A stretch of 64,000 nt of DNA from Odontocerum albicorne (Eukaryota; Arthropoda; Insecta; Trichoptera; Odontoceridae), in NCBI GenBank assembly GCA_949825065.1, contig OX463842.1, positions 8,705,539 through 8,769,538 of the forward strand, given 5' to 3'. Position numbers and translations under genes: made by a program. Each line of letters begins with the position of its first letter. Positions within the stretch are counted from its first letter, which is position 1. Below the pieces are notes generated by a model that was not told the DNA's origin, made no database searches, and worked only from the letters and a program-made list of their open reading frames with translations. This document shows positions 5,093 through 61,610 of this stretch, one piece after another.

Positions 5093-5766
5093 TGAGGAGG
5101 TAACATTAAAAAAGACCATGTCCATCGGGTACACAAAATGAGTTGATAAAGCAGATTTTTCTTATCGATGGTACGGAGCCGTTTAAAATTTTCATTTTAA
5201 TGAAAAAATCACATAAATCATTTTAAAATCATAATAAAAAAACCTGTATCTTTTCAAAAAGAATCTTGTCCAGGCTTCAAATCGATCAAAAAAGATCATG
5301 TCCGAATTGACCAATCATAGCTTTCCGATTGTGTATAACTTCATACCAGTTCACCAGCAACTGTCAGTTTTAAATCGTACGTGCAGTGTAATGCCTACAT
5401 ATATTTATAGTTTTATAGTACGAGTAATACTCGTATTTCTTCTTATTTTGTAACACTTGTATAATATAATATTTTTGAAATCGAACAAAAAAAACATTAT
5501 GTCCCAGACCTGTTCAATAAAAAAAGATTAAAGTAGAATTGTTCACTCAAAAAGGATCATGTCCATATTTTTAACTAGAATAACTATTTTCATTATTATG
5601 ATTCGATTTTAAACAACAAATCAAGTCGCCTTAAGCGATTTTAAGGATTTCAGATATTTTTACAATGAATTATTATCTCACATATTTTTCATACAAACAG
5701 TTTTTTTTGCGATTTTCCAACATTTTGATTTGGTGGACATGTTCTTTTTTTAATATTACCTCCTCA
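5093..5766. mobile_element. TA-flanked MITE with long inverted ends
   Basis: The inverted ends start TGAGGAGGTAA and stay alike for about 33 bp, into AAAAAAAG-N3-ATGTCCA. TA lies outside both ends (5091-5092, 5767-5768), as expected for a Tc1/mariner-type insertion. The 674-bp interior has no coding frame. It repeats the terminal motif AAAAAAGATCATGTCC in variant form near 5259, 5288, 5487 and 5547. The element also contains the paired TACGAGTA/TACTCGTA at 5419-5435. Confidence 0.7.
5419..5435. repeat. Paired TACGAGTA and TACTCGTA micro-insertions
   Basis: The 17-mer TACGAGTAATACTCGTA is a palindrome made of two copies of the octamer in opposite orientation. Removing the two 6-bp gains leaves TAATA, in which both TA dinucleotides would have been used. 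Confidence 0.55.
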
Positions 5767-5898
5767 TATGTGTATACTATATGCTATCAGCCCAGAAAGT
5801 TGCAACTGTGATGGCATTGGTACTTCCCTCTGCAGGTCTTCCGAGTAGTTCACGGGACACAATGGGCAAAACATCTGTTACTACAATAATTTAATCTC

Positions 5899-6201
5899 AT
5901 TGTAATTTATTTTTATCAATCACTGTTTATTCTACTTTTTTGTAACGGTATAACTCTACCGGTTTCAAGGCTTTCACCTCATCTTCAGGGGAGCACAAAC
6001 AAGACTCAACCGTTGAAGCGTGTATATCGGTACCAGTTCGAACAAAATTTAGTCTTATTTGTGCTCCCCTGAAGATGAGGGGAAAGCCTTGAAACCGGTA
6101 GGGTTATACCGTTACAAAAAAATGGAATAAACAGTGTTTGATAAAAATAAATTACAATGTCTTTAAACCTCCACAACGTTAATGCCTTAACTATAAACAA
6201 C
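5899..6201. mobile_element. Penelope-like element, inverted-arm (foldback) copy
   Basis: Two inverted arms of roughly 100-125 bp (about 5899-6015 and 6045-6165) each carry the 3' region of the Penelope-like family. That region includes the CTGAAGATGAGG...GAAACCGGTAG motif and the TATACCGTTACAAAAA block. AATTTAATCT flanks the insertion on both sides (5889-5898 and 6202-6211), a 10-bp target duplication. No endonuclease sequence is kept. Confidence 0.7.
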
Positions 6202-6211
6202 AATTTAATCT

Positions 6212-7133
6212 TACTATACGTGCATAGTGTTAGGTCGTCTATGATAATTCTTCATCTGAGGAGATTATCTTTTGATCTACCCACGAGGGTGCTTGGAAAT
6301 AAAGAGATCTTCATACGGTCTATGATAGGTGTCCTACAGATGTGTCCTTAAGATATCAGTTCTAGGTCTCCAGGAATCGACACGCTCATAGACACCCTTC
6401 AAGAGGGTTGTGGATGATCATAAAACTCCTGCATAATAATAATAATCCTGCATAATAATTGCAAATACAGTCTTAGCTGTGTTGATATTTGGTTATACAC
6501 AAGGTAGGTTAATTGCGTTGTTTGTGTTTCTCACTCCTACATGCCATATTACAGCGGATATTTTGAGGAAATATCGCAACAAAAGCATTAACCTTTTTTT
6601 AATGGGGTTGGTCTGAGACATCTAGTAACTAGGCCACATGTTTCGTTTAATCCAATATACGAGTATATCTGTTTTGCATGTGTATATATGTTCTATACTA
6701 GGCTGGCTTATTTTCCATCGTAGTAACCGAAAGCCAGCCCTGAGGTTTGCAGGCGGTTTGATTGTTCTTCTTTAACGCTCAAATAATTATCACTTACTAA
6801 GATTGTGAAAATTAGATTTAATATTGAAACAGTACCCAACTGAATTACATAATTTGTTATATCCCAATTTCCCCCTTTCTTTAGCCATGTTGATAATGCA
6901 ATTACTGCCTAAAGTACACGAATGCATGCCTTCATTGCATATCATATTTTAAACACTCTCATTTAGTGTAGACTTACCCCGGCTCAATTTATTAAATAAG
7001 TATAATTCCACGTCTAAGGTGTGTGAACTTTTCATTCGTAGGATAACTTATGTTATGTTAACTATACATTTGTGGATTTTGATCAATTTTCTCTAGCTTG
7101 AAATGTCATTAAAGAATTTGATACATTTAACAC
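6212..7133. other. Unassigned stretch
   Basis: No gene is supported. A TACGAGTA octamer lies at 6658-6665. Short frames around 6157-6351 mainly overlap the adjacent Penelope-like insertion and show no protein signature. Confidence 0.4.
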
Positions 7134-7144
7134 TTAATGTATAC

Positions 7145-7592
7145 TTTGTAATTTATTTTTATCAAACACTGTTTATTCCACTTTTTTGTGACGGTATAAC
7201 CCTACCGGTTTCAAAGCTTTCACCTCATCTTCAGGGGAGCACAAACAAGACTTAATTATGTTCGAACTGTTACCGATATACACGCTTCAACGGTTGGGAC
7301 TGAGGGGTAAGGGAAACATGGGACGATTTCGGCCAAGAGCGGAGAGATTTTTGGGATATAACTGTTCAACAGATGTTCGGATCGGTGTACTGACTTAGAA
7401 ATTTCTAGGGCCTCTAATCTATCCAATTTATTTCCGTTACTACTGATATGTAAGAATTTGGCATCATCGATAGAAAATGTATGGTTTTCACGGTGACAAT
7501 AATTAGCCATTTCAGAACAAATAAGAGGATTTGTTAAGGCGGGTTTGTGTTCACGAAATCTCTTTTCAAAAGATCTTCCTGTCTTTCCTATA
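7145..7592 (-). pseudogene. Penelope-like element, GIY-YIG endonuclease C-terminus
   Basis: The minus strand reads IGKTGRSFEKRFREH, then a stretch with ICSEMANYC and a KLDRLEALEISK segment. This matches the core and C-terminal glutamate region of the GIY-YIG endonuclease that ends many Penelope-like reverse transcriptases. The coding part is followed by the 3' UTR with the CTGAAGATGAGG...GAAACCGGTAGGG motif. The insertion is 5' truncated and flanked by an exact 11-bp duplication, TTAATGTATAC (7134-7144 and 7593-7603). The reverse transcriptase domain is absent, so the copy is dead. Confidence 0.75.
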
Positions 7593-9270: not shown

Positions 9271-9335
9271 ATATAAATATTTAACAACCAGAGTAATATA
9301 ACACAAAGGTAAGCAACACGCGAATTATAATAATA

Positions 9336-9360
9336 GGTTAGTCAAAAAGTTTTGAAAGCG
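9336..9360 (+). repeat. mariner left terminal inverted repeat
   Basis: 25 bp, identical to the reverse complement of 10599-10623. This is the expected transposase binding and cleavage site. Confidence 0.95.
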
Positions 9361-9511
9361 ACATCTATGGAGCAGTAGAAAAACCAAAATTTCTACGCCA
9401 TTTTAATATTTCATCTTTCATTAGAACGTACTCAAAATTTCATTTCGATCTGTCAATTCATTCTTTGTTTACAGGCCATTTGAAGTTGACGTGTCAGTGT
9501 ATTTTTTAACA

Positions 9512-10561
9512 ATGGAAAAATCCGAATATCGTGCAGTGATTAAATTCTTTGTTTTGGAAGGTTTATCGGCTACTGAGATCCATGCAAAGATGGTGAAAGT
9601 ATTAAAGGAGTCTTCTCCTTCATTTACAACCGTTCACCGATGGGTTTTGGAGTTTAAGCGTGGCCGTACAAGCGTTGAAGACGATCCACGCTCAGGACGT
9701 CCAAAAAGTGCATCAACACCAGAAATCATAGCGAAAATACAGGATATGGTTTTGGAAGATCATCGATCGACTGTGGATGTGTTAGCTGACACCATAGGCA
9801 TCTCACATGGAACAATATGGCATATTTTGGCTGAAGTTTTGGGTTTCAAAAAACTGTGTGCACAATGGGTGCCGCATTTGCTAACAATGCAACAAAAACA
9901 CGTTCGAATGCGACTTTCTGAGCAACATTTGGAGCAATTTCGAAAGGATAAAAAGGATTTTCTGCGTCGATTCATCACTATGGATGAGACTCGGGTCTAC
10001 CACCATGATCCTGAATCAAAACAAGAGGCTAAGGAGTGGTGTGAACCAGGCACTTTGGCTCCGAAGCGAGTTCGTGTCTAGAAATCGGCCAAGAAGGTGT
10101 TAACGTCAGTTTTTTGGGATGCAAAATGAATTTTATTGATAGATTATCTCCAAACTGGTAAGACAATCAACTCTGATTATTATTGTGACCTTTTGGACCA
10201 GTTGGATGAAAAAATTTGTGAAAAAAGACCCGGTTTGCAGAAGAAAAAAATCATTTTTCATCAAGACAATGCACCTGCTCACACAGCTCAAAAAACCATC
10301 GCGAAAATCAGTGAATTGGGGTACGAATTGTTGCAGCATCCACCCTATTCGCCAGATTTAGCTCCCTCTGACCTCTGGCTGTTCTCACACCTCAAAAAAT
10401 TCCTTCGTGGAAAGCATTTTTCATCAAACGAAGAGGTTATAGCCGTCGTAGAGGGATATTTTGCAGGCCTTCCAGAAAGTCACTTCCGTGATGGGACAAC
10501 AAAGTTAAAAGATCGTTGGACCAAGTGTATTGATCTTATGGGAGACTATACTGAGCAATAA
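9512..10561 (+). pseudogene. mariner transposase, two premature stops
   Basis: This is the enzyme that cuts and reinserts mariner ends in the nucleus. From ATG 9512 the frame holds 350 codons including the final stop, the usual size for the family. An earlier in-frame start at 9491 would add seven residues, but 9512 begins the family-typical N-terminus. Features in order: N-terminal helix-turn-helix (about residues 1-50), second HTH (about 85-110, LADTIGISHGTIWHIL), WVPHLL at 119-124, first catalytic Asp158 (ITMDET), second Asp252 (HQDNAPAH) and third Asp287 (YSPDLAPSDLW), giving D,D34D spacing. TAG at codon 190 (10079-10081) and TGA at codon 206 (10127-10129) interrupt the frame. Both look like single-base changes because the flanking protein stays in frame. 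Confidence 0.95.
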
Positions 10562-10598
10562 AAGTGATTTCCCCCCAAAAAAAATGTATTTTCATTTC

Positions 10599-10623
10599 CG
10601 CTTTCAAAACTTTTTGACTAACC
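10599..10623 (-). repeat. mariner right terminal inverted repeat
   Basis: Perfect inverted match to 9336-9360, followed by the TA target duplication. Confidence 0.95.
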
Positions 10624-10625
10624 TA

Positions 10626-10980
10626 GTAATTATTTAAAAAAATTCAATTTTATGAGCAACCCTGCAGTTTAAGGTGGCAGTCTCTCTCACAAATGTCCAC
10701 ACAAAAAAACTGTCACCCGTATCTAGTTTCAATAAGTATGTCATTGCTCTTGGAAGATACTCGTAGGTACATTCCAGTAGATACTCCCCGTATGTTGGTA
10801 ACGTTAAGGGCCACTTTCTAGGAAAAGTCCCGTTCGAGGATCTGGTCTCCTCGTTAACATATTTAAGCCACCGAGACACAAGACAAATCTTTACTTTGCA
10901 TCTCGTGAGTGGGACATGATGCTCAATTAAATATCAAAGGTTTGGTTTGCTTCTTGAATAAATACCCAGATTTCACTTTG
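10626..10980. other. Unassigned stretch
   Basis: No gene is recognised. A TACTCGTA octamer is at 10758-10765. The 81-residue minus-strand frame here shows no family signature. Confidence 0.4.
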
Positions 10981-11840
10981 ACGTTAAGTTATCATAATTA
11001 TATGATTATTTTCAAATAGTTTATGTATAACGTGTTAAACTAAAAATGACTCATCTTTGACATGATGAACACGACTGAACTCATTCTCAAACGGTGGAAG
11101 AATGACGAGGGATATCGAACAGCGTGAAGTGATAGGAAACAAAGTCAATGGGACTTTAAAACACATATACTCGAGCCAAATAGAATCAAAATCGGCTAGG
11201 ATGATAGTTCACAACAATATTTTAGTAACATCTCTAATGTATGGGAGAGGAACGTGGTAAAAAAATACTGAAAAGAGTCGAATAAATGCTATGGAAATAC
11301 GTGTACTTTGAAGAATGACAACGAAGGGGGTGACAATGTATAAAAAAATATGAAATGAAGGGATTAGCGTACTCGGAGATGGTTTGGGCCCGTGGAACGA
11401 ATGAATGAAGAAAGATTAACGAAACAAATATGCAGCGAAAATGTGAGAGGAAGACATAGTAGAGAAAGACTAAGGAAATTATGACCAAATGATAAATATT
11501 AATAAAAAATAAGAAGAAAGGGAAGTTGTTGGAGCTGTATGATAAGGTGTATGGATGTGGAATAGACGAAATATATGTGTCGAGATAGGAAAGTTTGGCA
11601 GTCTGCCTTATGCACCTACCCCCCCAGGGAAACGGTATAATGGTATGTATGTATTTATGTTAACATGACTTAATAAAATGGTATTTTTTCTAACTTTGCA
11701 TTTATGTACTATTTTCTTCAATTAGTTTCAAAGGATATCGACCGGCGTGTAACGATAGGAAAGAAGTCAATGGGATACTAAAACATAACTTGAAGTGACC
11801 TTGAATATGTGTGTGTATGTATGGTATGTGTGTATATTTC
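10981..11840 (+). pseudogene. LINE family Y, RT C-terminal region and 3' UTR (copy 1)
   Basis: Three plus-strand copies (here, 17180 and 24433) share most of their length. The translation shows a decayed VHNNILVTSLMYG block followed by a RINAMEIRVL-like block and a degraded L..FGH segment, the known pattern behind the LINE polymerase core. The 3' UTR contains a poly-C tract (7 C here) and GGGAAACGGTATAATGGTAT. Many stops and frame changes. Confidence 0.65.
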
Positions 11841-12538
11841 CTATCACTACACGCCATTCGATACCCCTCTTAACTCTTCCATTACCTGAGAAAATACTAC
11901 CCAAATAGCAGTTTCTCAACTTGATCCAATATTTTATTATCCACTCATATATTTCATGTTATACAAATTTGCAATATATATTTTCCTTGCTCATTTATGT
12001 ATCAAGTTGACTCAGACGTTATCTAAACACGCAATATTTTCGCAAATAAATTATAACTATGAGTAGACGTGTCAGAGTAAACAAAACACTTCAAGATAAA
12101 ATATTGTACTTGATAAAATATACCGATAAGTGCAATTTCATCTCGTCCAGTCATTTAAATGTATACCAAAAGAGTCACATTAAGGAACAATTGCCGTAGG
12201 CATGGAATTTTAAAAAACTGCTTTGTTGAGACTTCGAACGGAGGCATCACAATTAATAAAAACAGTATCGTTTAAAATAACTTAAAACTATAGGAGAATA
12301 ATCAATTTGGAAAGAGAAAATCACGTAGCAGTGTTGTGTCTGGTCTCCCTAAATTTGCCGATCGCTCTAGAAAAAATATATTTTTCTTTCTTTTGCAGCA
12401 CGGAATTCAACCGATTTTGTGTCGACCGTCGATTTGGCCCATCAATATTGATACTTTTAAGACCCAAACAAAATCATGGCAACCTTTCCAGTGCTCGGCG
12501 TGTTTTTGAGGAATTCTGATCTTTGTGAAGTGTTCACT
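11841..12538. other. Unassigned stretch
   Basis: Nothing beyond low-complexity TGTG tracts near 11810-11850 and LINE-like debris at its left end. The 70-residue frame at 12307-12519 has no recognisable features. Confidence 0.4.
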
Positions 12539-12556
12539 ACAATTGCTTATCTAAGT

Positions 12557-12884
12557 CTTCTTCTTCCTGGCACTGCCCCAACTCATTGCCTAGGTAGGCT
12601 GTTGGGGTCGGCTCTTCTCGTTCTCAGGCTGTATATTCTTCGGTTCTAGGTATCGCTTTCATCTAGGCCGTTTCTCTGCAGGGTTTTGGAGCATTGAGTC
12701 ATCCAGGAGTTCTTTGGTCTTCCTCTGGACGGCTATCGAGGGTCTCCGTCTTATGTGCCCTTACCATCTCAGCTGTCGCTCTTCTCGCTTACTATTTATG
12801 TCAGTGACCCCCAGGCTAACACGAATGCGTGAGCTCTTAATTTTATCTTTCAGTGATCCTCCTGCCGACCACCTAAGCATTCGC
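12557..12884 (-). pseudogene. LINE insertion with exact 18-bp target duplication
   Basis: ACAATTGCTTATCTAAGT occurs at 12539-12556 and 12885-12902, bounding a 328-bp 5'-truncated LINE. The minus strand reads VRMLRWSAGGSLKDKIKSSR followed by a RQLRW*GH motif, the conserved RT C-terminal block, and ends in a (GAA)n tail. The in-frame stop in the W.GH motif and later frame changes show decay. Confidence 0.8.
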
Positions 12885-12959
12885 ACAATTGCTTATCTAA
12901 GTAAATGTTAAAAATATTATGATCCCGAATATTGGTTTAAAATTCCTACTTGAATAACT

Positions 12960-12967
12960 TACTCGTA
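12960..12967 (-). repeat. TACGAGTA octamer (TACTCGTA on plus)
   Basis: Exact octamer just right of the LINE insertion. No paralogous empty site is available here. Confidence 0.4.
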
Positions 12968-13124
12968 GTTAAGTATGTTATGATAATTCAGCCAAAAAAT
13001 TTCTTTGTGAAAAGCTACATCACACTCTTTACATACATACCATATAAACCAGGTCTCACTTCTCGTCTTGTGCTTAGCACATATGTACCTTAAAAGTTCT
13101 GCAACGGGTTTTTTTTTCTTTTTC

Positions 13125-13453
13125 GTCAGTTGATGGAGTACATATCAACATGTGTTTAGACACGTTTTTTTGTCAGTTGATGGAGTACATATCAACATAT
13201 GTTTAGACACGTTTTTTTGTCAGTTGATGGAGTACATATCAACATGTGTTTAGACACGTTTTTTTGTCAGTTGATGGAGTACATATCAACATGTGTTTAG
13301 ACACGTTTTTTTGTCAGTTGATGGAGTACATATCAACATGTGTTTAGACACGTTTTTTTGTCAGTTGATGGAGTACATATTAACATGTGTTTAGACACGT
13401 TTTTTTGTCAGTTGATGGAGTACATATCAACATGTGTTTAGACACGTTTTTTT
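13125..13453. repeat. 47-bp tandem array, seven copies
   Basis: Starts at 13125, 13172, 13219, 13266, 13313, 13360 and 13407, nearly identical. Each unit contains GTTGAT-N9-ATCAAC, which can pair as a short hairpin, and a run of seven T. The low divergence suggests recent expansion or homogenisation. Confidence 0.95.
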
Positions 13454-13740
13454 GATAACCTGTTGGGAGATCCCTCAAATTGCTTATTCTATTTGGACCT
13501 AGATTCATATGTCAAAATCTTTAAGATCTGACACTTCACTGCATACCGATGACAGTATTCATAGTCTAGAGTATTTCCCATATTAGAAATGAGAGACTAT
13601 TAGGTGAAACTATTTACAAAAAATATTTGCTATGTGCCAATAATATGTCATTTTTTCAAGCGGTATTGATAACGTGAAAACACTGAAACGACACTCAACG
13701 TAAATCTAGTTTACCACATTACCAAACTTGGTTTTTATAT

Positions 13741-14318
13741 TTAAAGAAAGCTCGACCCAGAAACCGAAGTCAAGTGCAGAATTGAATCATCTCGTGCGAC
13801 TTTTAATAAACTGAGAAGCGTATTCAGCGATGATAATCTGAACTTGAAACTTCGACAACGGTTAGTCAAATGCTGCGTTTGGTCGGTGTTATTGCATGGA
13901 GTGGAATCATAGACCCTCAAAGTTGGTAGTATAAACCGACTGGAAGCATTCGAAATGTGGATGCACCGGAGAATGGTACGGATACCCTGGACGGATATGG
14001 TCAGCAACGCGAGGGTTCTTCAAAGAGTCAAAGTTGATGGAGAGCTGCTGACTAATATTAAAATCCAAAAGGTGTCCTACTTGGGGCATGTACTTAGAGA
14101 AGCAAAGTACAAATTACTGCACCTGATCATCCAAGGAAAAATAGAAGGCCAAAGAAGTGTTGGCAGGAGGCAAATCTCCTGGCTCCGCCATATACGTGAT
14201 TGGACTGGCATAAGGGGCGTCGGTGATTTTTTTCGGGCTGCCGGGGACAAAGATGTCTACACTCAGGTGATATTTAACGTTGGGGGAACCTGACATGACA
14301 CTGGGAAGAAGAAGAATA
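13741..14318 (+). pseudogene. LINE RT C-terminal domain with (GAA)n tail
   Basis: A nearly continuous frame reads DPETEVKCRIESSRATFNKL, then WSVLLHGVES, one in-frame TAG at 13910-13912, then LEAFEMWMHRRMVRIPWTD, a YLGHVLRE motif and GRRQISWLRHIRDWTGI. This is the well-known LINE segment behind the polymerase palm (LYG.E.., WC.R.., LGH). Only the last part of the protein is present. It ends in AAGAAGAAGAA like 12557-12884 and 44958-45085. The stop after VES replaces the position usually taken by W. Confidence 0.75.
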
Positions 14319-15990: not shown

Positions 15991-16877
15991 AATCGTGTAA
16001 TGCTAAGCTAGTAATTTCAAAAAGAATAATTAAAATAGCATCTCACTGGTATAATATTATTGTGCAGTATTTGCTACAGTAATGGAACGACGTCAGTAGT
16101 TGCTAAGAAACAAATATAAACAAATTCTACACTTTTTATTCCAAAAACTTAAACGCTGTAGAATTTACACTGGTGGAGTAAACACTCGTTTACTTTTTTG
16201 GCAAAGTTGTAAAAAATATATAAAGGTTATATTATTTTTTATATAACCGCCAATTTATTTTAATTTTTCATATTGCGGTTTGTATCTTGAGACAAATGTG
16301 CAATTTCGAAATGTATTTAAATAATAAACCTATATTTATATATTATTTATTTATTATATTATAACAGAATATGTATGAAAAACGAAACTTGAACGTCGTA
16401 GAATTAACGCTGGTGTAGTTAACTGTCTACTTTTCTGCAAATTGAAAAGTAAATAAAAAAATATCATTCTGGCCGAGCAGCGCCCCTTCTATTGTCCGCC
16501 TGCGTTCGGTGCGCACGTTACACGCCCTATAGGCGCGGACCTGGGCCTACAGACTACGTTGTAATCTACGAGAGGGCATAATGATTATTTATCTGGATTA
16601 ATTATCGATCAATTTAACATAGTCATATCAATGAAAATGTGATACCAATGAAAAAAAAAGTCGCCAATATGCGAGTAAGAACTAAGCTAGCCAAAAGAAA
16701 GTTTACTCGTATTATTCTTAGTCCTTGAGTTAACCACCAGCTGCCTTTAATGTACAGTACCCGGCGGTAATTAATACGCATAGTTTATAGATCGTCGTCT
16801 CTGTCGCACGATGCGCTAACAGTCCGGTCCGGTAACGACTGACAAATCACGACGGAACACGTGTACGAATAGTTTGC

Positions 16878-22420: not shown

Positions 22421-22640
22421 ACATGTACAAGGGTTTGTGCTGAAAAACATCTGACGACATTGCTACTGGGGTCGCCCTGTATTGGTGAAGTGAATCTTAG
22501 CCAGGGGGATGTTATGAGATGAGCCCAGACCTTTTGATAACTTCTCTCTTAAATGTATTTTCTGCTATTTATCTTGAGACATACGTGTGATTTCGAAATG
22601 TATTTATATACTCGTATGTTAATACAATGTTGCTATCAAT
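22421..22640 (+). repeat. Retroposon family Q, copy 3
   Basis: Reads ATGAGCCCAGACCTTTTGAT, then TTTCGAAATGTATTTATA, then GTTGCTATCAATAATCC. A TACTCGTA octamer at 22609-22616 interrupts the stretch that is continuous in copy 2. Confidence 0.65.
22609..22616 (-). repeat. TACGAGTA micro-insertion in retroposon Q
   Basis: Removing six bases restores TATATGT, as in copy 2 (about 21795-21802). The surrounding alignment has other differences, so support is moderate. Confidence 0.55.
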
Positions 22641-24431: not shown

Positions 24432-24432
24432 A

Positions 24433-26036: not shown

Positions 26037-26044
26037 CATTATAG

Positions 26045-26306: not shown

Positions 26307-27004
26307 ATAAAATAATTGAAAAAATACAAAATTGAAATCTCTTTTAAGCATTTATATCTGTTGACCCTGTTCTATATATCCCGATAATTTTATTTTGTTG
26401 TGGCCTAATATCAGGATACGACCTAAAAATCTCAGAATAATGTATCTCGCACACTGATTATCTAGTGTAAAAATATAAATTTGACAAAACATCCGAGACG
26501 ATTACATCATATCAAGCCCCTCACAGGGACAAGAGTATTGACAATCGCAGCCGGTACCCAGGCCAGACTCCGCCCCGCTATCAGACTCCAGATACTGCTG
26601 ATTAGGCGACTCGTAAAAAATAATCAGCTCCAATATTTGTCATTGGCCAGGCCGTTGAGCTTGCCCTTGCAATGCATCGCGATATGCACATAAATGCAAT
26701 AAGTATTGGACAGCCGCCTGAATATATCATACAGAAAAGAAAACATACTCCAAATAATTTTTGAAATAATTGTAATTTGTTTCTTGAAATAATTGTAATT
26801 TGTTTCTTGAAATAATTGTAATTTGTTTCTTGAAATAATTGTAATTTGTTTCTTGAATCTTGGAAGATATGTTTATTTGACTTTGTGGTGTTACGTTTAT
26901 AATTTTTTTAATAATATAATTACTCGTAAAACATTTATTTTTGAAGTGAAACTTCTACGGCCGCGGTAGGGCTAATTGGCCTGAACGTCACGAAAAGTGA
27001 AACG
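26307..27004. other. Unassigned stretch with a short array
   Basis: It contains four 23-bp copies of TTGAAATAATTGTAATTTG plus TTTC at 26761-26852. The 70-residue frame at 26481-26693 has no recognisable features. Confidence 0.5.
26921..26928 (-). repeat. TACGAGTA octamer (TACTCGTA on plus)
   Basis: Exact octamer in AT-rich sequence; no paralog to compare. Confidence 0.4.
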
Positions 27005-27345
27005 CTCAATTTTAAAAATGAAATAATATTTAATAATTTAAATTTATTTATTTAGTAATATTATTTTATATTTAAATAAATAATTTATTTAAGTAAATAA
27101 CAAATTATTTAAATTTATTATTTTTATAAATATTATATAAATTTAATATAATATATATTATTTAATATAATATACATTATATCATATAATACGAGTATAT
27201 GTTGTTATTTATTATATAATATATATTAAAATATTTAAATTTATTAAATTTAATTTAAATAAATAAATATTAAATTAATATGTAATAAATAAATAAAATA
27301 TTTGATAAATAAATAAATTTTAATTATTTAACATTTAAACCATTT
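27005..27345. repeat. AT-rich low-complexity tract
   Basis: Almost pure A/T with irregular AAATAAATTTATT units, interrupted by TACGAGTA at 27190-27197. Confidence 0.7.
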
Positions 27346-28888: not shown

Positions 28889-29184
28889 AACACAACTATT
28901 CTATTCTGTAACACACTGTAAACACAACTATTCTATTCTGTAACACACTGTAAACACAACTATTATATTCTCTAACACAACGTAAACACAGCTATTCTAC
29001 GAGTATTCTGTAACATACAGTAAACACAACTATTCTATTCTGTAACACACTGTAAACACAACTATTCTATTCTGTAACACACTGTAAACACAACTATTCT
29101 ATTCTATAATACACTGTAAACACAACTATTATATTCTGTATCACACTGTCAACACAACTATTCTATTCTGCAACACACTGTAAA
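28889..29184. repeat. 32-bp tandem array, about nine copies
   Basis: Unit AACACAACTATTCTATTCTG plus TAACACACTGTA. One unit (about 28985-29022) is six bases longer because of TACGAGTA at 28998-29005. Confidence 0.9.
28998..29005 (+). repeat. TACGAGTA micro-insertion in 32-bp array
   Basis: Neighbouring units read ATTCTATTCTG; this one reads ATTCTACGAGTATTCTG. The TA has become TA-CGAG-TA with no other change. Confidence 0.85.
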
Positions 29185-29429: not shown

Positions 29430-29660
29430 AATCCTGAAACTTTCCTTTTCCTTTGATTGATGATATCTCACTTTTACTTTAATATGTTCATGTCCATAAA
29501 TTACATAAATATTAATAATCTTTTGGATATCTTTTACGACCGTATATCTTGCTTTATTTTACTTTTGTTTGGTTGGTTAGAAGAGATGGCCTCCTGGTAA
29601 TAATCCCGCCAGATTGTACAAGTATTTACAATAAAGTGTTAAATACTCGTAAATAAATAA
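29430..29660 (+). repeat. LINE family P 3' UTR (copy 5)
   Basis: The plus-strand copy of the P 3' UTR: TTGATTGATGATATCTCACT, then TTTTGTTTGGTTGGTTAGAAG, then CCGCCAGATTGTAC and the AATAAAGTGTTAAA tail. The tail is split by TACTCGTA. Confidence 0.65.
29644..29651 (-). repeat. TACGAGTA micro-insertion in LINE P tail
   Basis: Other P copies read GTGTTAAATAAATAAA; here GTGTTAAA-TACTCGTA-AATAAATAAA, a 6-bp gain at TA. Confidence 0.8.
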
Positions 29661-33274: not shown

Positions 33275-33479
33275 TTAAGATATAAATTTGTATATAGGTA
33301 TAGCCTTTGGCAAATGTTTGTGCTATATACGAGTACATATTAGTTTATTAAATTAAAATAAAACATGAAAATCTAATTAATTCCAAATTTGTAGTGATGC
33401 AAGTATTCGATGTCATGACAGTGGGACAGAGTTTGATGTTGCCTAAAAATGCAAAATATTTTTTAGCAGTGATTTAAGA

Positions 33480-35609: not shown

Positions 35610-36285
35610 GGATGGTTTTACATACGATATTCTTTAAATGATTAAAAAAAAGTTTTTTTGTTTAAATATATATGAAACAATGTTATTTTGTTTATAATTA
35701 GTGGAATAACAAAGAAATTTTGTTTGAAATATTTTAAGATGGAGTTACATAAAGTCAACGTCGAAATCTTTGATAAAAATAAGAATTTATATAACCTAGT
35801 TATAATATCAGTTCGTCTAAAAACGCTACCAAAAAAGTCAATGCAATTACTAAGCAATGACAGTTGAATAGTACATTTATTTATAACTAAATTGGAAGGG
35901 AATTTACTGATAAATAAATTTGTGTAAAATTGTCCTTAAAACAAATTATTTATCGTTAACGTAAATTGATAAAATAAATTGTTAAGATAACTATTTGTTT
36001 AGTTGACATTTTATAAAATTGATAAATGAGCGTTCAGTATATATACTCGTAGGTACTATACATCGTTCTGCAGAGTGACAAAAAAAACGATAACAGACAG
36101 ATTACCTAGGTCACTGCACCTGCGTACAACTGCATTATTTGGGTACCCGAGTGCTACGAGTATATCAAGAACTCTGGTTTGCTTAAGATAAGAGCTCACT
36201 GAATCTGCCCCAATCATCACTGTTTATTCATGTATTTATGTACCATTATTTAGTTAATAACACGTCTAAGTTTATAATAATAATA
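35610..36285. other. Unassigned AT-rich stretch
   Basis: TACTCGTA at 36044-36051 and TACGAGTA at 36155-36162. The 71-residue minus frame at its start is hydrophobic low-complexity sequence with no family signature. Confidence 0.4.
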
Positions 36286-36889: not shown

Positions 36890-37545
36890 TATCGTTAACT
36901 TACTATAACCTTTAACTTATTCTAATTAGAATTATCATTAACTTACTTACATTAATTTATTACAATTATAATTATAGTCAATTTATTATACCCATTAACT
37001 TTTTATAATTATCGTTAACGTATTAAAATAAGAGTTGTCATTGAGTTATTATAACCGTTAACTTATTATAATTAGAGTTATCATTAACTTACTTACGTTA
37101 TTTTTTTACAATTATAATTATTGTTCATTTATTATAACCGTTAACTTTTTATAATTATCGTTAACGTATTAAAATAACAGTTATCATTGACTTATTATCA
37201 CCGATAACTTATTACAATTAGAATTATCGTTAATTTATTACAATTATAATTATTGTTCATATATTATAACCGTTAACTTTTTATATGGTAATTTATGGTT
37301 AACGTATTAAAATAACAGTTATCATTAACTTATTATAGCCGTTAACTTAATATAATTAGAATTATCTTTAACTTACTTACATTAATTTATTACAATTATA
37401 ATTATAGTTCATTTATTATAACCGTTAACTTTTTATAATTATCTTTAACGTATTAAAATAACAGTTACCATTAACTTATTATAACTGATAACTTATTGTG
37501 ATTATAATTATCGTTAACTTACGAGTATTATAACCGTTGTTAGAT
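36890..37545. repeat. Nested GTTAAC array, 146-bp higher-order unit
   Basis: Short variants of TTATCATTAACTTATTATAA form larger units starting near 36936, 37082, 37228 and 37366 (146, 146 and 138 bp apart). TACGAGTA interrupts one subunit at 37520-37527. Confidence 0.8.
37520..37527 (+). repeat. TACGAGTA micro-insertion in GTTAAC array
   Basis: Other subunits read TTAACTTATTATAACCG; here TTAACT-TACGAGTA-TTATAACCG, an exact 6-bp gain at TA. Confidence 0.85.
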
Positions 37546-37705: not shown

Positions 37706-37713
37706 TACTCGTA
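37706..37713 (-). repeat. TACGAGTA micro-insertion in LINE
   Basis: Here GAGT-TACTCGTA-CAAGAGAT; related LINE copies read GAAT-TA-CGAGGGAT, so six extra bases. Confidence 0.65.
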
Positions 37714-38208: not shown

Positions 38209-38829
38209 TGATTAAAGATTAATGTAAACTTAAGGATGATATGTTGAGTAAGATACGGAAGAGTACTTCGAGAGGGTTTGGACAAGGGGAACGAATGTAT
38301 GAAGAAAGACTGACCTATCAAATATATAGTTTAAAGGTATGGCAGAGGAAGACGGAAGGAAGAAAATGAGCACCAATCAAAAGAGAAACTTTGAGTTGGT
38401 AGACATAAGTCATATCAACTAGGCTTAGTCATCGAAAAAAGGCAAAATAATGGCATTCCACTCAACATCAAAATAGGATGACCAATAATTAACAGCTTTT
38501 TTAGTTAACATTAATAACGTTGATTAATGGAGAATGGTAACAACAGGTATTCATTTATAAGAACCTTTCTAATATGCAACACTCACTCAAAATAGAGCAT
38601 AGCACCAGTGGCGTAACGAGGATATTCTGCGCCCGAGACACACTGCCCCCCTTTCACAAGGTATAAGCTTGTGACATATGGGAATAAGGCAGAAGCCCTG
38701 CTGTCCAAAATAAAGTCTGTATATGTATATGTTTTTTTACATTCATCATAAATTACAAAATATTATAATACGAGTATCTATTTTTATTTTATTTTTTAGC
38801 GTATTGCGTGTTCTTCATACCAGTGAATT

Positions 38830-39680: not shown

Positions 39681-40215
39681 AAATAGATAAGAAAGTATGG
39701 CGTTTTGGCCACTCATTTTATTCCTAAGTAATAAGTAAGGTAAATATTGTATTTTTATGAGTAGGTGTAGGGGGTAGAAGAGGACTGATGTATGTCACGA
39801 TAGAAAAGCCTAGCGCACTCTCATCTCTTCTTATCCTAACAGCAAGACGGCGTGATTGTATGTTTATATTTTTTTATATACGAGTATAATAAAATGATAT
39901 CTAAATCAATTTAATTATAATATATATCAAAGCAGTAATTATTAAGCTGAAAAGTCTTTTCATTCTGTAAAATTAAATATCAGCATTGCCATTATTTCTG
40001 ATTTCAAGTAATATTCATATCTGAAGTACGAACAAAAGCTAAAACAACAGACATTGCTTCAAATTGTGCATAAAAATATCTGACGCCGACAGGGAATAGT
40101 AAAATGAAGTTTTTTTTAATATATTCACTTTGATCCCTGATTTACCCCCTTCTTAGCAATGGGCCCATGGACTAGATCCCTCGACCCTCCTGACCTACCC
40201 TCCACTACGCCACTG

Positions 40216-47935: not shown

Positions 47936-49934
47936 CGACTAAAATTTTAGTTCATTATAGTTTTTATACTCGTATCATTTTATGAAACAATTTTGATCAT
48001 ATATGAAAGATGGATAGATTGACATCTTCTATGTTATATTTACCATCAAAATTGTTTGGCTTGTCAAAATAATTCGTTTTCAATTTTAATATGCATAGAC
48101 ATGCGTATTTACAAAAAAATATTAAACCTGCGAATTAAATAATAAGCTAACCTAAATCCTACATTCGCAAGAAATATAAATATAGTTTAATATGTATATT
48201 TTTGTGTCAATTTCGTTTTGTACAATGTTATGAAGTCCATCGATATATTTCTTTAAAAATCTTAAAATATACGAGTATATTAGATTTGGGTTATATCTTT
48301 CTACAACTATGATATGTGTATTGAATTGTATAATACTTTCGATGTATACAACTTGGTGGGCTTATCGCCATGTGGCAATCTCTTTATTTACATATTTGAT
48401 AGAAAATGTAAGAAATGAGATTTTTCTTTGACGTCATTATACCTCTATTCAGAATTTGTTAAAAAAAAACATTTTGGTTTTACTAAAAAAACAGCACAAA
48501 TTCCAAAAACTTCGATCTCCAATTTGCTAGAAATTTAAATCGAAGATCTGTGAGAAAACTTATAATAAAAATAACTTAATTAACAATGTTATTAGGACAA
48601 ATACCTATATATGGTAAGATCGAACATTTTATAAAACCCAAATATTGTTCAAGAAAACATTAAAAGTAAAAAATTATCTTAATCCGAAATAACCATTTTT
48701 ATTTAATATTAAACTTATTTAATTCTAAAGAAGACACCAATATGCATAAAAGAATTTCTAATTTAAGTAATTTATTCGTTTAGTAACATTCAAAGTATTA
48801 TTTTTAACGGTATAAAATTATGTTGCTGAACATTTTTACCAAAATCTTTTCCATATGGTCAACAAAATTTGTTATCTGCATTCAAAATACACTATTTCCG
48901 CAAGGTCTTTCCTCTTAAAACCTGTCTCCGCATTATTGACAATGCAACATCGGATGTTAGTTAAATTTAACGGTCTTCTGACACAAATTTAGAAGAGTTG
49001 ATAATAATAATTCTTATAGTGAAATCTCTTTCGTTATGGTCAGTCACTTCTATTCGCAATATGAATTATACCCGATAGAAGTTCACACAGTTGGGTCATT
49101 CTCATGCGGAGTCTAGGGATCCTGTTTGGGTGTATCAGACCGGATTTTCAAAATCACCAGAGATCATAGGTCAGCGCATAGGGCCCTTTGGAACTGACCG
49201 GTGTTGGATTGCTAAAATGCAGAACTTTCTTTCATCCTTTTAATAATACATCGTGCATTTTATAAGAACTAACGATTTTTTAACGGTTACCGTTAATGCA
49301 TTAGTTATTCCGAGACAAGTTTGTAGAATTTTAGTTAGCAAGATCTTGCGAAACGAAAAAAATTCTTTCTATTTTAAGTGGTTTATTCAAATATAATAAT
49401 GTCTCTGGTGATATTTTATAACACAATTTTTAAAATGCATTTTATGTGAAAAAAAAACTATTCAACATACATATTTTACGAGTATTTATAAAATAGAATT
49501 AGTTACATTCGATTTATAAAATGAATTTACGTAACACTTTGACGTATAAACTAATTCTTGCTTTACATTTTTTAAATTAACTTTCAAATTGACTACATTT
49601 CCTTTACTATGTGAATCCGTATTAAACTGGGCATTTTTCAAGTAAATCAATATTGTAGATACTACTAAGGCCGGATATACACTCAAACATACATATACAC
49701 AAATAAATGCATCAGAATGTTGGAGTGACCAAAGTTGTACAATACTCATGACGGGCTGTATTCATATATTAATTTTATCATTGATTTTTTAAAATCTTTT
49801 ATCTCTAACTTGAATGGTTTTGAAAACAAATAAAAAATTCTTCTCTCTTTTCACATGTGAAGCTCATACTCGGCTTCATTTTTTAGCATTAAATATAACA
49901 TTTCTTGAAAACTATGTGCATTTATAAGATTACA
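47936..49934. other. Unassigned AT-rich stretch
   Basis: A SINE tail scrap at about 48340-48390, octamers at 47967-47974, 48270-48277 and 49477-49484, and a palindrome TTAACGGTTACCGTTAA at 49280-49296. No gene. Confidence 0.4.
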
Positions 49935-50744: not shown

Positions 50745-51110
50745 ATCACAGTATTGTAGTACCAACATTCGTCTATGGAAGTGAAACGTGAACGTGGAAT
50801 AAGACTAAAATGAGCCGAATAAATGCTGTAGAAAAGTGTGCACTAAGGAGGATACATAGGGTGACAATGTATGACAGAATATGTGATCAGGAATGAATAT
50901 GAACTTGCTGGCTGATGTTTTAAGTAAGATTAAGAAGTAAGTAAGAAGTACTCTGAGATGGTTTGGGTATATAGAATAAATTAATGTAGAAAGACCAATA
51001 ACACAATATACACATACTCGTATAATGCAAGAGTAGAAGGCGTGATAGAGGATTGTAGCATGAATTGACATCCTCTGGATTAGAGGCTGACTGCTCACAA
51101 TGAAGACTTT
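50745..51110 (+). pseudogene. LINE RT C-terminal remnant
   Basis: FVYGSET-like and RINAVEKCALRRIHRV-like blocks, then a LRWFGY block, are readable on the plus strand with frame breaks. A TACTCGTA octamer lies at 51015-51022. Confidence 0.6.
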
Positions 51111-51177
51111 GAACTAACATTTTTTTCTACTAATTCGAGAATTCGCCATCGTAAAATAAACAACGAAAAGACCTAAA

Positions 51178-51640: not shown

Positions 51641-52214
51641 CCGAGCTTGTGGGGGAGAGAAAAGCCTAAAGAAGGGCTATTCATCAATCAGGTTTAAATA
51701 CTAATGGGGTTGTAATACAAGAAATGATTATGACATTGGCATACGTAGAGTGATTTTTGATCGCCAAATTACACTAGGGGGATAAATAAACGTAAATGCA
51801 AGTACATAGTGTATTAGTTCCATGAAGGAGCTTTTGATCGATATTAAATTAAAATTTCATTAATGATGGGCAGAAATTACGGCTGAAAATAGTCATAAAA
51901 TGTCCACATTACTAAGAAAATTGTCTCCAGTGACGTAACAAGTTAACCGTTTTATTGATTATTAAAAAAAACAGCAATAACGCGTCAAAAATTACGGAAG
52001 GTAGTAGCGCTTAGTGCCTTTCTTCATCTTTCACAACACATTAAGCCTTAAGTTCATATTCATCCCTAATCACTTCATTCCGTATTCTGTCATACATTTT
52101 TAATTAACCAATTATATACGTTTTTTGGTTGGATCATTTATATATACATGTATGCGATTAATTATATGTTTAATTGAATGCTCAATAAATTAATTGACTG
52201 TCACAATTTTTTTC
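51641..52214. other. Unassigned stretch with LINE scrap
   Basis: About 52025-52115 matches minus-strand LINE RT debris (CATATTCATCCCTAATCACT). Otherwise nothing. Confidence 0.4.
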
Positions 52215-54542: not shown

Positions 54543-55187
54543 CAGCGCTTCCCAATCTAATTGAATCACGGGACCCTTTTACATTTTGTACGATATAACA
54601 GAACCCTTTTACATTTTGTACAATATAACGGAATCTCTTAAATATATCAGCGTGGAATTTGAAAAAGCGTCTTGATGTGGAACAAAAATCTTAATTCTAC
54701 ATTAAATAATTTTTTATATTTTTATTGGTATTTACATGTTTCAAAGGATAATGAAAACTATTTTTTTATAAAACAATGTGGTGAGCATATTGCCATGTGG
54801 AATCTCTTCCAGCCAACCACACAAACATCCTATAAATAAGTGCAGCCGTCCTGTATACGTGACTGTCTATTATAAGGTTTTACTTTTAATTAAATCATGA
54901 TTATGGTAAACTTGGTTTTCATTTAAACACTGAGCGTAACCAATCACAGGCGTTTCCTAGTATTTAGGTAGGTAGGTGCGGTAGTGTACAGTCTATGTAA
55001 TAAGCAAGATCTGGATTATAATATTAAGACTGTTTAGTACACAAACTGTATAGTAAAATCAATCTAATTCAAATATTATTTCGTCCGCCAAATATGACAC
55101 ATAACATATGTAACATATAGCATCTATAATGTGTATTTTTTCCCACGGAACCCAAGAAGTCCGCATAATCCCATTTGACAAACGCTG
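54543..55187. mobile_element. hAT-like MITE with exact 8-bp target duplication
   Basis: ATTTTAGG at 54535-54542 and 55188-55195. The ends CAGCGCTTCCCAA and (inward from the right) CAGCGTTTGTCAAA are alike, and GGGACCC / GGGTTCC motifs lie just inside, as in many hAT ends. 645 bp, no coding. A SINE tail scrap is at 54775-54840. Confidence 0.8.
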
Positions 55188-55195
55188 ATTTTAGG

Positions 55196-56639
55196 TGTTT
55201 CGACTCCAAATCTCTTAATTAAATGTCCAATCGTCAGAACTTGTCCACGAAGGAGTATATGATAGTGTCAAATTGTAGACGAGTTATTTAAATGCAAAAA
55301 ATACAATCAAGAGGCATAAATAATAATTTGAATTGTAGAGGAGTATTTTAAAGATTTTTCCCATAAATTTAAGAGCTGTTACAAAAAAAATTTTAAATAC
55401 GAGTATTAATATTAAAACTTATTTTCAGGCTTTTTAAGGTACTAAAATTTTAATTGCCTTTTATTGTTAAGATCAAGTATTTAATTGGTTAAATAAGTAA
55501 ACAATTTTCAAGAAATTAAGTAATTATGTCGTAGATTATTTTTTAAATTATCCAAATAGCAAAGATACATTATTCAACGAATATATTTACCATATTTAAT
55601 CCTAAACTTCAAGCCTTAACTTGTATCTTAACTCTCTACCCGTATATTCGCCATATAAGGCAATAAGTGCCCGAATCTCTCCTATCCCCCGCCGCTCTGC
55701 AGCATCCCTCTCCTCGCCCGAAGAACCTGTTCTGAACCGACACATTAAACAGAACAGGCCACAGTGGATTTTTTTTCTTATTTTCTCGTCTTATTTTCTT
55801 TCCAGGCGGTCTCAGCCAGTGTGTCAGTTAGCGCATGCATACGACCGCATACACTTGCAACGACATCCAGGGCCGTTCCAATGTTACAGTGTAATTCGTG
55901 TTGAGATATAGAGCGTTATTTTAAAAAGTTTTCGTTATTTTCCTATTTTATGGTATCACACTTATGCACAGGTCTAACAATATAAGATGATGCTAACATC
56001 GTAAATGTGAGTTTTCTAGGACGGAGTGGCATTTAAAACTATTGTATAATTAGTCGATGTTGTATAAACAAGGTCTCTAAACTACAAAAAGACATATTTT
56101 TTCCATTAATTTGATTAAATGGGTATACATGACACATCCGGTGGGTTTGTTTCTATACAGCAAACAGTATTCGTTTAAATTAAAATTAAAATAAACAAAT
56201 ATATGACCAATCTCTAAACAAAACTGATAGAAGCAGAAAAAATCTATTCGTTCTAGAATAAGGAAGGGGGAACGAAAGAAAATGAATATGAAAATATATT
56301 CTGAGAAATTGAATATTGTTTCAATTATTTCTTAAACGTAAATAAGGATGGTGCACATCATCTCTAGAAAGTTTTTTCCACAGATGCGCTGAGTGAACCA
56401 CAAATGAGGATATTTAAAATGACTTGTAGGGGGATGCTATGCCTGGGAGTCTCTCATCGTCTAGTCGAAGAGAACGTCCGTAATATAACAATCTAAAGTA
56501 TAAAACATATATAGGTATATTAAACAGGCTCGTAAAGCCAATCACTAAAATAAATGTATTTTTTTATTGTACGAGTATATGACATAATGACTAACTACCA
56601 TTTAATATTTAAACATAATTCCAGTTCAACTCTATTAAA
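55196..56639. other. Unassigned stretch
   Basis: Octamers at 55398-55405 and 56570-56577. A 96-codon plus frame at 55621-55911, in a less AT-rich patch, has no recognisable domain. Confidence 0.4.
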
Positions 56640-56890
56640 ATTATTTTATGGTAAGTGATATAAGTTTTTTAAGTATATTCGTAAGATAATTTTGTATGTA
56701 ATATTTTATGTTAAGTGGTATAAGATTTGAAGTATCTTTCTAAGATAATTTTGTAAGTAATACTCGTATTTTATCGCAATTGATATGAGTTTTTGAAGTA
56801 TCTTTCTAAGATAATTTTGTATGTAATATTTTATGGTAAGTGACATAAGTTTTTTTAGTATCTTTCTGAGATAATTTTGTATGTAATTGT
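56640..56890. repeat. Tandem array of about 61 bp, four copies
   Basis: TTTTATGGTAAGTGATATAAG and TCTAAGATAATTTTGTATG are the conserved parts. The third unit is longer because of TACTCGTA at 56761-56768. Confidence 0.85.
56761..56768 (-). repeat. TACGAGTA micro-insertion in 61-bp array
   Basis: Other units read GTAATATTTTATG; this one GTAA-TACTCGTA-TTTTATC, an exact 6-bp gain at TA. Confidence 0.85.
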
Positions 56891-58855: not shown

Positions 58856-58858
58856 CAA

Positions 58859-59745: not shown

Positions 59746-59749
59746 GTAT

Positions 59750-59950
59750 TGTTTTACACTTTCGTTGTATACAGTACAACCTGGTGGGCTTATATGTGGC
59801 AATCTCTTCCAACCAATAGAAAGATTGGTTGGAAGAGATTGCCACATGACAATAAGCTCGCCAGGTTAAAAAATATGTTTAAAAGGTTTTTAAGTGAAAA
59901 CCAGACTGGAATCTTTTTTTTTAAAGCTGGGTTTCAACAGGAATTCGTAT
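59750..59950. repeat. SINE family S, foldback tail
   Basis: ATGTGGCAATCTCTTCCAAC through CAAT (59794-59817) pairs perfectly over 24 bp with 59824-59847 around a 6-base loop. Both arms are the SINE 3' tail. Minus-strand body sequence follows to about 59950. Confidence 0.8.
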
Positions 59951-60403
59951 TCAATACTATTTCTGCGTCCAATCTTTCAGCAATTTTTCATCAACATAGG
60001 CTCTCCCTTCGTGATGGTAGTAGGGGTTGAATCATCAAGCTGGAAATTAAAGTCCTCCTCATCCCTAAACTTTTCACAAATGCGTGGTATGACAAATTCC
60101 TGCAGCAAGTACAAGTAAAAGTGTGTGTACATTTTAATGTAGATGTTGTTGAGTTCATGAGGGTTTTTCTGCACTTACTCAATCTTGGAGACTATTTAAT
60201 TTTGTTTTTTTAAATTATGATTTGCTCAATGATTTTGCATTTTTACTACCCTTGACAAATATTTTATTTTTCACTACTTAAATATTGTATTGTTCATTAA
60301 ATTTAATAAATTGTATTTGATTATTTTTTTTAATTATGCGCTGTTTTATCATGGATATTTACATGCATTATATTTTGAAAGATATACGAGTAAGAAAAAA
60401 GAT

Positions 60404-60620
60404 GACCTCCGTGATCTAATTGGTAAGACGCCTGTCTCTCAACCCGGAAGTTGCGGGTTAAAAACCTACTGGAACCCAGATTTAAAAAGAAAATTTTGTC
60501 TGTTTTCATTAAATATCTCACTAACATATTTCATATTGGTTAAAAGAGATTGCTTCATGGCACTAAATTCGCCAGCTTGTACTGTATATAACAAAAGTAC
60601 AATACAATAAAAATATGTAA
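60404..60620 (+). repeat. SINE family S, near full length
   Basis: GACCTCCGTGATCTAATTGGTAA, GTTGCGGGTTAAAAACC (weakened B box), CTGGAACCCAGATTTAAAAA, and the tail AAAAGAGATTGCTTCATGGC with AAATTCGCCAGCTTGTACTG. Confidence 0.7.
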
Positions 60621-61299
60621 ACTGAATTGTTAGTTTAATTTGGAAGATGTTGATATGTTTTGTTTCGTTTTATAATTGTTACTTTAATATGTACAGGACT
60701 CTTAAGTGGCGTTTGTTGTATAAATAAATAAATAATATCGGTATTTTAACCATTTCCTTAAAAAGTTATTCGTAAATGCTTAAACAGAGCACAAAACCGT
60801 AAGAATTTTTATATATTGGTTTAAAAAAATGCAGCAAGAAAAACATAAGTAGGCACAATCAATTTATGGTTGAAATTGTTGATTTGTGGGTACATTTTAT
60901 ATTCACCATATTGACAATACTCCGTGTCACAATGCTCTAAATATATTTTGTTCAGTATTATTACAAAACGTTTTGTGGTGTCCAAGTATAGTGTGCCCTA
61001 TATAAGGAGCAAGTCATGTATCCGTTTTTGTTCCGCATTAAATAAACTTAACAGAAATTATTTAATTCTTTAAAAATATTTTGGTTGGAATATTTCATTA
61101 GGAAAGAAAAATCTTAAGAATTTAAAATATATTTTAAATATAAATTTACGAAAATTGTGAGGCTTTTAAATTAAACAAAATAGTTGCCAAATCATCAACT
61201 GAATGCATTTAAACTTTGGTCATATTTTATGACGTAGTATCAATTTATGAAAGAAGGCAAAATGAAGACTTTATTTATAAATGCACGGATAATATTGAT
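60621..61299. other. Unassigned AT-rich stretch
   Basis: No gene or clear repeat. Confidence 0.35.
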
Positions 61300-61610
61300 G
61301 TTTTAATTAGAAGAGCTTTAAGATAGTTTGGACATGTGGGGAGAATAAGTGACGAAAGAATAACTAAGCAAGTATACGAGTCAAAAGTGCAAGGTGTACG
61401 TGGAAATGGTAGACCGAGGAAACATGGCTGGATCATATGGATCAGATGTTAAAAGAAGGTAAAGTGAGAAGTATGAATAATAGAAGATTGTACGAGTACA
61501 TAACGAGATATATGAATGTACAGGAGGCGAAAGTTGTGTTATTGGATGTTTGGAAATGTGTTCTCTCTATCTACACCGCAAGGATCACAGTGGGATGATA
61601 TGTATGATAT
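61300..61610 (+). pseudogene. LINE RT C-terminal remnant
   Basis: LRRALR*FGHVGRISDERIT, KQVYESKVQGVRGNGRPRKH and, after a break, an RRLYEYITRYMNVQEAK block. The last block has two extra codons compared with the RRxCMxRCM pattern of related copies, exactly at TACGAGTA. Confidence 0.65.
61491..61498 (+). repeat. TACGAGTA micro-insertion in LINE coding remnant
   Basis: Removing six bases gives RRLYITRYMNV, which lines up residue for residue with RRACMRRCMDV-type relatives. Confidence 0.65.

Follow-up and report, generated by a model that had tools for sequence, protein, structure and literature searches.

Elements of the Tc1/mariner superfamily leave footprints of 2–4 bp when they excise (PMC7913693; papers are cited here and throughout from extracts of their text), and ends that begin CGAGG are already known among mariners, Hsmar2 having TACGAGGGGTCTTC (PMC3770610). 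Once a DNA transposon has left its site, its excision is difficult to recognise, and in rice the process proved messy (PMC4423477). Here we describe a stretch of 64,000 nucleotides (nt) from Odontocerum albicorne (Trichoptera; contig OX463842.1, positions 8,705,539 to 8,769,538; the window), in which the octamer TACGAGTA, or TACTCGTA on the opposite strand, recurs with CGAG held between two TA dinucleotides. We consider it probable that these octamers, bar some 7–8% that arise by chance, are the repaired excision scars of a CGAG-ended, TA-targeting transposon, likely a resident mariner-type family and its sister.

The window contains 15 copies of TACGAGTA and 12 of TACTCGTA, 27 in all, and each lies exactly at the start given by the original prediction, a reading of the letters alone that had listed about 27 copies; the recurrence is thereby confirmed. 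The same reading put the number due to composition at two or three; Markov models of the window, both strands counted, expect 2.4 copies at order 0 and 1.7, 1.8, 1.5 and 4.0 at orders 1–4. Expectations climb to 13.7 at order 5 and 21.8 at order 6, but the words to which these two models are fitted already contain most of the octamer. Simulating 40 sequences of 64 kb under the order-3 model gave a mean of 1.55 octamers and a maximum of 5, while masking 18 tandem arrays left 23 octamers in 57,673 bases, against 1.3–3.0 expected. Fourteen other 10-kb stretches of the genome (140 kb) held 42 more, so that the combined 204-kb sample has 69 octamers, against 4.8 expected at order 3, and the octamer is its most over-represented 8-mer. 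The 24 words that differ from it by one mismatch are not inflated (138 observed, 132 expected), and thus no excess of decayed scars is visible. Chance and base composition are thus rejected as its origin by the Markov expectations, the simulations and the masking of arrays. The near-equal orientation that had also been remarked on was counted as described (15:12) but carries no evidential weight, since CGAG and CTCG are one word on two strands and any dispersed word, the control below included, balances in the same way.

The excess extends to the whole assembly (1,287,057,991 bases in 1,241 contigs), where a genome-wide count against expectation had been proposed as the check. There, 190,753 forward and 190,749 reverse copies of TACGAGTA add up to 381,502, or 0.3 exact copies per kb, compared with 30,151 (15,081 and 15,070) for a control made of the same letters in reversed order. 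Scaling the order-3 expectation of 4.8 per 204 kb gives about 30,000 chance octamers genome-wide, and hence an excess of roughly 350,000. The sequences around the 69 sampled octamers are essentially unrelated, only 2 of the 69 having a partner that matches 20 of 30 flanking bases, and a dispersed repeat that carries the octamer was rejected on this ground.

Where related copies of a locus exist, the octamer can be read as six bases added to a TA. We collapsed each octamer to TA and aligned the result to paralogs or to the other units of its array, which produced gap-free empty sites at 28998, 37520, 56761, 61491, 37706 and 51015. A stricter rule tolerates no gap close to the collapsed site and requires it to outscore the full site where both align. 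By this rule the six bases are clearly absent from paralogs or array units at four loci (28998, 56761, 37706 and 61491); 51015 and the AT-rich 27190 pass on weak alignments, and 37520, 22609 and 16704 fail (Table 1). Support is therefore weaker at 37520 and 51015. The remaining 18 copies in the window, 29644 among them, have no paralog at the threshold of this rule. Because several units of an array lack the six bases and one has them, the insertion is taken as the derived state, and wherever paralogs are usable the octamers mostly appear to be derived insertions. The alignments did not show an ancestral octamer lost from its neighbours, which had been named as a refutation; the octamer is mostly the odd one out, with one contrary case given below.

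The original prediction, that TA becomes TA-CGAG-TA by insertion of 6 bp, therefore holds cleanly at four window loci and weakly at two. Its three array examples stand for 28998 and 56761 and are weak for 37520, and of the four for which it invoked LINE or retroposon paralogs, 37706 and 61491 stand while 29644 and 22609 do not. Four octamers of the 140-kb sample (L069:127, L069:6754, L071:6863 and L078:1788) gained weak empty-site paralogs under a looser rule. A blind survey of insertions and deletions, which had likewise been suggested, found 175 insertion events, ten of them of 6 bp and two of these at octamers (28997 and 61497); by itself it does not reveal an effect of octamer insertion, and it is the targeted alignments that are positive at four loci.

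A strong candidate source, whose ends match the inserted bases, is present, and abundant, in the same genome; a search for such a TA-flanked, CGAG-ended transposon had been proposed. Reading those TACGAG sites of the sample that are not octamers led to an element with ends TA-CGAGGCGTATCCAGAAAGTAAGTGTACTGA; what is inserted at the octamers corresponds to the termini of this TA-flanked element, whose ends read TA-CGAGGCGTATCC. The mariner-type ends TA-CGAGGCGTATCCAGAAAGTAAG number 23,022 genome-wide at up to three mismatches (11,468 and 11,554 on the two strands; control 0), and a sister end, TA-CGAGGGTCATCCAGAAAGTAAG, numbers 5,596 at up to two (2,764 and 2,832; control 0), the two counts overlapping because exact sister ends lie three mismatches from the main pattern. 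Eight element loci were read, five with both ends and three with one end within the stretch fetched. All five two-ended copies (four of the main family, one of the sister) have TA at both outer ends and matching ends of about 30 bp, and the four main-family copies are 871–956 bp long and 93.9–95.3% identical to one another. One of four pieces of the copy at L071 matches Pfam Transposase_1 (1e-20), and against the PDB that piece matches Mos1 and SETMAR chains (2.5e-10 to 4.1e-9); a piece of the sister copy at L068 matches HTH_Tnp_Tc3_2 alone, at 3.5e-4, under the family cut-off. The motifs GDETW, HDNARPHTA and PSDYYLF, considered for a DD34D catalytic triad, are present in different frames of a broken main-family copy, and judged from these matches the main-family copies carry a predicted mariner transposase that is broken. 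No convincing CGAG-ended inverted pair was seen in the window or the sample among sites up to 6 kb apart. A mariner end, TACGAGGCG, stands immediately next to TACTCGTA at L145 (G000:C1:13493466-13493509), and it seems that the element inserted beside an existing scar or that the scar formed beside the element.

The target preference of the scars is also close to that of this element. Reading outward from the two TAs over 138 flanks of the 204-kb sample, +1 is T in 89 (50 expected), +2 is A in 68 (50 expected) and +3 is T in 77 (49 expected), with C and G together at +3 in only 15 (42 expected). The preference is palindromic, being alike on both sides, and positions +4 to +8 have no significant signal. 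Insertion sites of the CGAG mariner favour ATA-TA-TAT, at the same three positions: in 60 flanks of exact element ends (one end type, the first 60 of 100 listed, all on contig C1), +1 is T in 55% and C in 32%, +2 is A in 68%, and +3 is T in 72% and G in 0%, with no significant signal beyond +3. The target preference of the scars thus resembles that of the CGAG mariner in its positions and in its favoured bases.

Taken together, these findings support the suggestion that a TA-targeting Tc1/mariner-type element left CGAG behind on excision, a reading that fits nearly all of them. The element inserts at TA and duplicates it, as the TA at both ends of the five copies shows. On excision, the 5′ strand would be cut 4 nt inside each end, leaving a 3′ overhang CGAG on both flanks; these overhangs would anneal through their outer bases, C with G and G with C, leaving a mismatch at each of the two central positions. 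If one strand were then copied, the product would be TACGAGTA, and if the other were, TACTCGTA. Each hop would add a single 6-bp scar, and neutral scars would accumulate after the elements had moved on. Heteroduplex repair of this kind is said to have been described for Minos in Drosophila.

The annealing scheme predicts a single length, and it also predicts CGCG and CTAG products if the two mismatches are settled separately. Such mixed products are not in excess: TACGCGTA occurs 6,799 times genome-wide, against about 8,300 expected by scaling 1.3 per 204 kb (reversed control 20,160), and TACTAGTA twice in the 204-kb sample, against 3.8 expected. On this scheme, therefore, both mismatches would be settled from the same strand, and with that proviso the annealing of CGAG overhangs would account for the single 4-nt length and for the absence of mixed products. 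Other footprints fare no better. A 3-nt mariner footprint was rejected as the origin, as TACGATA is not enriched (27 observed, 26 expected), nor is TACGTA (32 observed, 43 expected); 5-nt scars were rejected because TACGAGGTA falls below its control genome-wide (4,522 and 7,218); and a CATG footprint of Tc1 type was rejected with TACATGTA at 7 observed and 7.4 expected.

The number of scars is large relative to the number of elements. Some 23,000–28,000 CGAG-type ends, from overlapping counts, correspond to about 11,500–14,000 elements and thus to about 25–30 scars for each. An identity of 94–95% among main-family copies places them about 2.5–3% from their ancestor, and at an assumed mutation rate of 3e-9 per site and generation the scar count could be reached with a few excisions for every million copies and generations. 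Since scars are the product of copies, excision rate and time, no extraordinary activity is needed, only long residence and clean repair. We lean, with moderate confidence, towards a fuller account in which this CGAG branch of the mariners cuts 4 nt inside its ends, self-pairing of the outer bases steers one clean repair, and the resulting scars, about 350,000 of them at 25–30 per surviving element, form the main record of DNA transposition in the genome.

Several points weigh against excision by the resident mariner. Part of the 381,502 copies lie in tandem arrays, and hence are not separate events: the octamer sits in most units of the arrays at G000:C1:24114-24706, 71937-72794 and 55174-55449, with periods of 45, 50 and 67, where scars were apparently amplified after they had formed. 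The octamer at L074:3597 aligns without a 6-bp gap to positions 46249-46409 of the window, which read TCCTCGTA, suggesting that there is no scar at that place or that the scar predates the repeat copies. In two of the five two-ended copies CGAG is mutated at one end (CTAG at L071, CGAA at L068). Element ends and scars also differ at +1 (p = 0.001), where C makes up 32% and 12% respectively and A 2% and 14%, and there is a slight difference at +2 (p = 0.047); part of this may be due to chance octamers and to source families other than this one. Targets resembling ATATAT are common among Tc1/mariner elements, so that the match in target preference is only moderately specific; ZB is an example (PMC7913693). 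The footprints of Hsmar2, whose ends read CGAGGG, were irregular in HeLa cells (PMC3770610), and mariner excision is described as cutting 2–3 nt inside the 5′ end (PMC2642840); should the scars come from a mariner, their 4-nt stagger would depart from that group while remaining within the range of the superfamily. Finally, in this single assembly no locus was seen at which one copy has the element and another has the scar.

The foremost rival as the source of the scars is a Minos-like Tc1 element that has since become rare or disappeared. Minos has ends TA-CGAGCCCCAACC, a Minos primer reads TACGAGCCCCAACCACTATTAATTC (PMC3680223) and its footprint is 6 bp (PMC10992017), so that a CGAG scar fits without any change of mechanism, and the genome holds relatives of Tc1-like transposases (119 matches). 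The Minos end TACGAGCCCCAACC is in excess at up to two mismatches (3,433, against 1,861 for the control) but has no exact copy genome-wide, the listed places being sorted by mismatch and starting at one. Its commonest one-mismatch variant, TACGAGCCCAAACC, has a conserved left flank in five of the seven loci read, which makes it a part of some repeat rather than a transposon end. Among the 113 of 30,650 transposase candidates that were scored, the best match to Minos is 34% identical over residues 34-278 of 361, others reaching 42–43% over 145–150 residues, and six Tc1-like loci were read, of which three end in TACACT and one in ATAGTC, two lack clear inverted ends and none has CGAG. Minos was accordingly rejected as the likeliest source, on the missing exact end, the weak transposase matches and the variant inside a repeat, and we regard a Minos-like origin as unlikely.

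Other sources were set aside more simply. The TACACT- and ATAGTC-ended Tc1-like families were rejected by their ends (TACACTTA 13 observed, 13.5 expected), as was the mariner within the window, which ends TACTAGG and TAATAGG. Beyond this genome, a search for Minos-like loci gave no pattern match in viral contigs and 78 in prokaryote genomes, none of which was confirmed; 59 stretches of viral contigs with a Minos end resemble the Minos primer at no more than 20 of 25 bases and were considered chance, TACGAGCC standing in opposite orientation in 3 of the 59.

That the octamer is instead a functional or sequence-biased motif, such as a binding site, a repeat-borne word or the product of a mutation hotspot, would accord with its rank as the most over-represented word, with the amplification of some copies in tandem arrays and with the near-identical word that shares the site of L074:3597 in a paralog. 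The presence or absence of 6 bp at TA in arrays and repeats, the unrelated flanks, the lack of any surplus of near matches and the palindromic, transposase-like target all speak against such a motif, which we hold to be very improbable. A short-insertion process that needs no transposon, for instance templated end joining at TA, would match the fact that 6 bp alone are visible at the scar loci, but is the least probable of all in view of the single length and sequence, of a target like that of a transposase, and of a resident element whose ends are exactly these and whose target is similar.

Table 1. Octamers of the window read as putative excision scars, with the outcome of alignment to related copies.
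Putative scar	Position	Strand	Remarks
TACGAGTA	5419..5426	+	
TACTCGTA	5428..5435	-	one base from the scar at 5419..5426
TACGAGTA	6658..6665	+	
TACTCGTA	10758..10765	-	
TACTCGTA	12960..12967	-	
TACTCGTA	16704..16711	-	20-bp difference from paralog, uninformative; 0/1 under stricter rule
TACTCGTA	22609..22616	-	clean empty site in 0/6 paralogs
TACTCGTA	26921..26928	-	
TACGAGTA	27190..27197	+	low-complexity AT DNA; 1/7 paralogs, not usable
TACGAGTA	28998..29005	+	one tandem-array unit; 5 gap-free alignments to units without the 6 bp; stricter rule 3/3
TACTCGTA	29644..29651	-	no usable paralog; short AT-rich matches only
TACGAGTA	33328..33335	+	just outside the piggyBac-like element
TACTCGTA	36044..36051	-	
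TACGAGTA	36155..36162	+	
TACGAGTA	37520..37527	+	end of tandem array; 6 gap-free alignments to units without the 6 bp; stricter rule 0/1
TACTCGTA	37706..37713	-	2 gap-free alignments; 6 bp absent in 4/4 paralogs (stricter rule)
TACGAGTA	38769..38776	+	
TACGAGTA	39879..39886	+	
TACTCGTA	47967..47974	-	
TACGAGTA	48270..48277	+	
TACGAGTA	49477..49484	+	
TACTCGTA	51015..51022	-	weak: 6 bp absent in 2/4 diverged paralogs, one with its own octamer nearby
TACGAGTA	55398..55405	+	
TACGAGTA	56570..56577	+	
TACTCGTA	56761..56768	-	one tandem-array unit; 2 gap-free alignments; stricter rule 2/2 without the 6 bp
TACGAGTA	60385..60392	+	
TACGAGTA	61491..61498	+	interspersed repeat; 1 gap-free alignment; stricter rule 4/5 paralogs without the 6 bp

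The window holds two other DNA transposons. The mariner at 9331-10628 has 30-bp ends (TAGGTTAGTCAAAAAGTTTTGAAAGCG), which are not of the CGAG type, and between 10081 and 10130 stop codons interrupt its transposase. The piggyBac-like element (30644-33301) is bounded by inverted arms of 40 bp (30644-30683 and 33262-33301) that are 75% complementary, and has a long open piggyBac-type transposase of 577 amino acids on the minus strand (31159-32892; DDE_Tnp_1_7, 2.4e-94), whose nearest proteins are 79% identical over 80% and 86% identical over 69% of its length. As first noticed, no octamer lies inside either element, but the idea that the scars might therefore be the older is supported neither way, because at the density of the window fewer than two octamers are expected in those 4 kb. 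Elsewhere in the genome, L082, L083 and L085 are Tc1-like elements with ends TACACT(A/G)GCGGTCATTGAAATG, and their transposase matches come in two parts, 84–111 bp apart near query residue 274-291, perhaps across an intron. Further repeats in the window include a block around AACGGTATAACCCTACCGGTTTCAAGGCTTTCACCTCAT, which recurs with variants in both orientations at 5945, 6105, 7191, 38055, 38146, 44141, 46117 and 50416, and a tandem array at 51176-51641, in which a 21-bp unit is repeated 22 times and whose open frame on the minus strand consists of FIRRHLK repeats.

Among the titles and passages seen from open-licence full texts there is no report of a comparable genome-wide set of scars, or of this octamer as a transposon scar; the octamer does occur inside a gene sequence in PMC9020824. 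Most likely, this genome is an unusually dense fossil record of excision, with several hundred thousand scars that far exceed the surviving elements. The significance of exact scars is that sequence can then serve to measure the excision rate, the mode of repair, past target preference and how many hops lie behind each surviving copy. They also provide a simple test for other genomes, in which TA, the terminal bases and TA again are counted for each resident family, and a 4-nt stagger, if true, is added to what is described for mariners.

Among known systems, Minos (Tc1 family, Drosophila hydei) is alike in starting TA-CGAG (PMC3680223) and in its 6-bp footprint (PMC10992017), features from which its excision would give the identical octamer; it is unlike in that this genome lacks an exact copy of its end and that none of the scored candidates is a close transposase. 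Minos excisions that restored the wild-type sequence or were called precise are reported in flies (PMC7466976, PMC4640092), so some CGAG excisions would also leave no scar. Mariners of the Hsmar2 type (irritans subfamily), with ends TACGAGGGGTCTTCAAAAAGTTCATGG, share the TA-CGAGG ends, the TA target and the mariner transposase (PMC3770610), whereas footprints there are irregular and here one exact 4-nt product is dominant. With Mos1 and other mariners the likeness is that terminal bases of the element are left between two copies of TA (PMC2642840), although here four bases remain and neither TACGATA nor TACGTA is enriched. Rice offers the comparable genome-wide view of excision; there, only 8 of 94 putative excisions were perfect, the others showing deletions, filler or a combination of the two (PMC4423477), in contrast to the one exact product, hundreds of thousands of times over, in O. 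albicorne.

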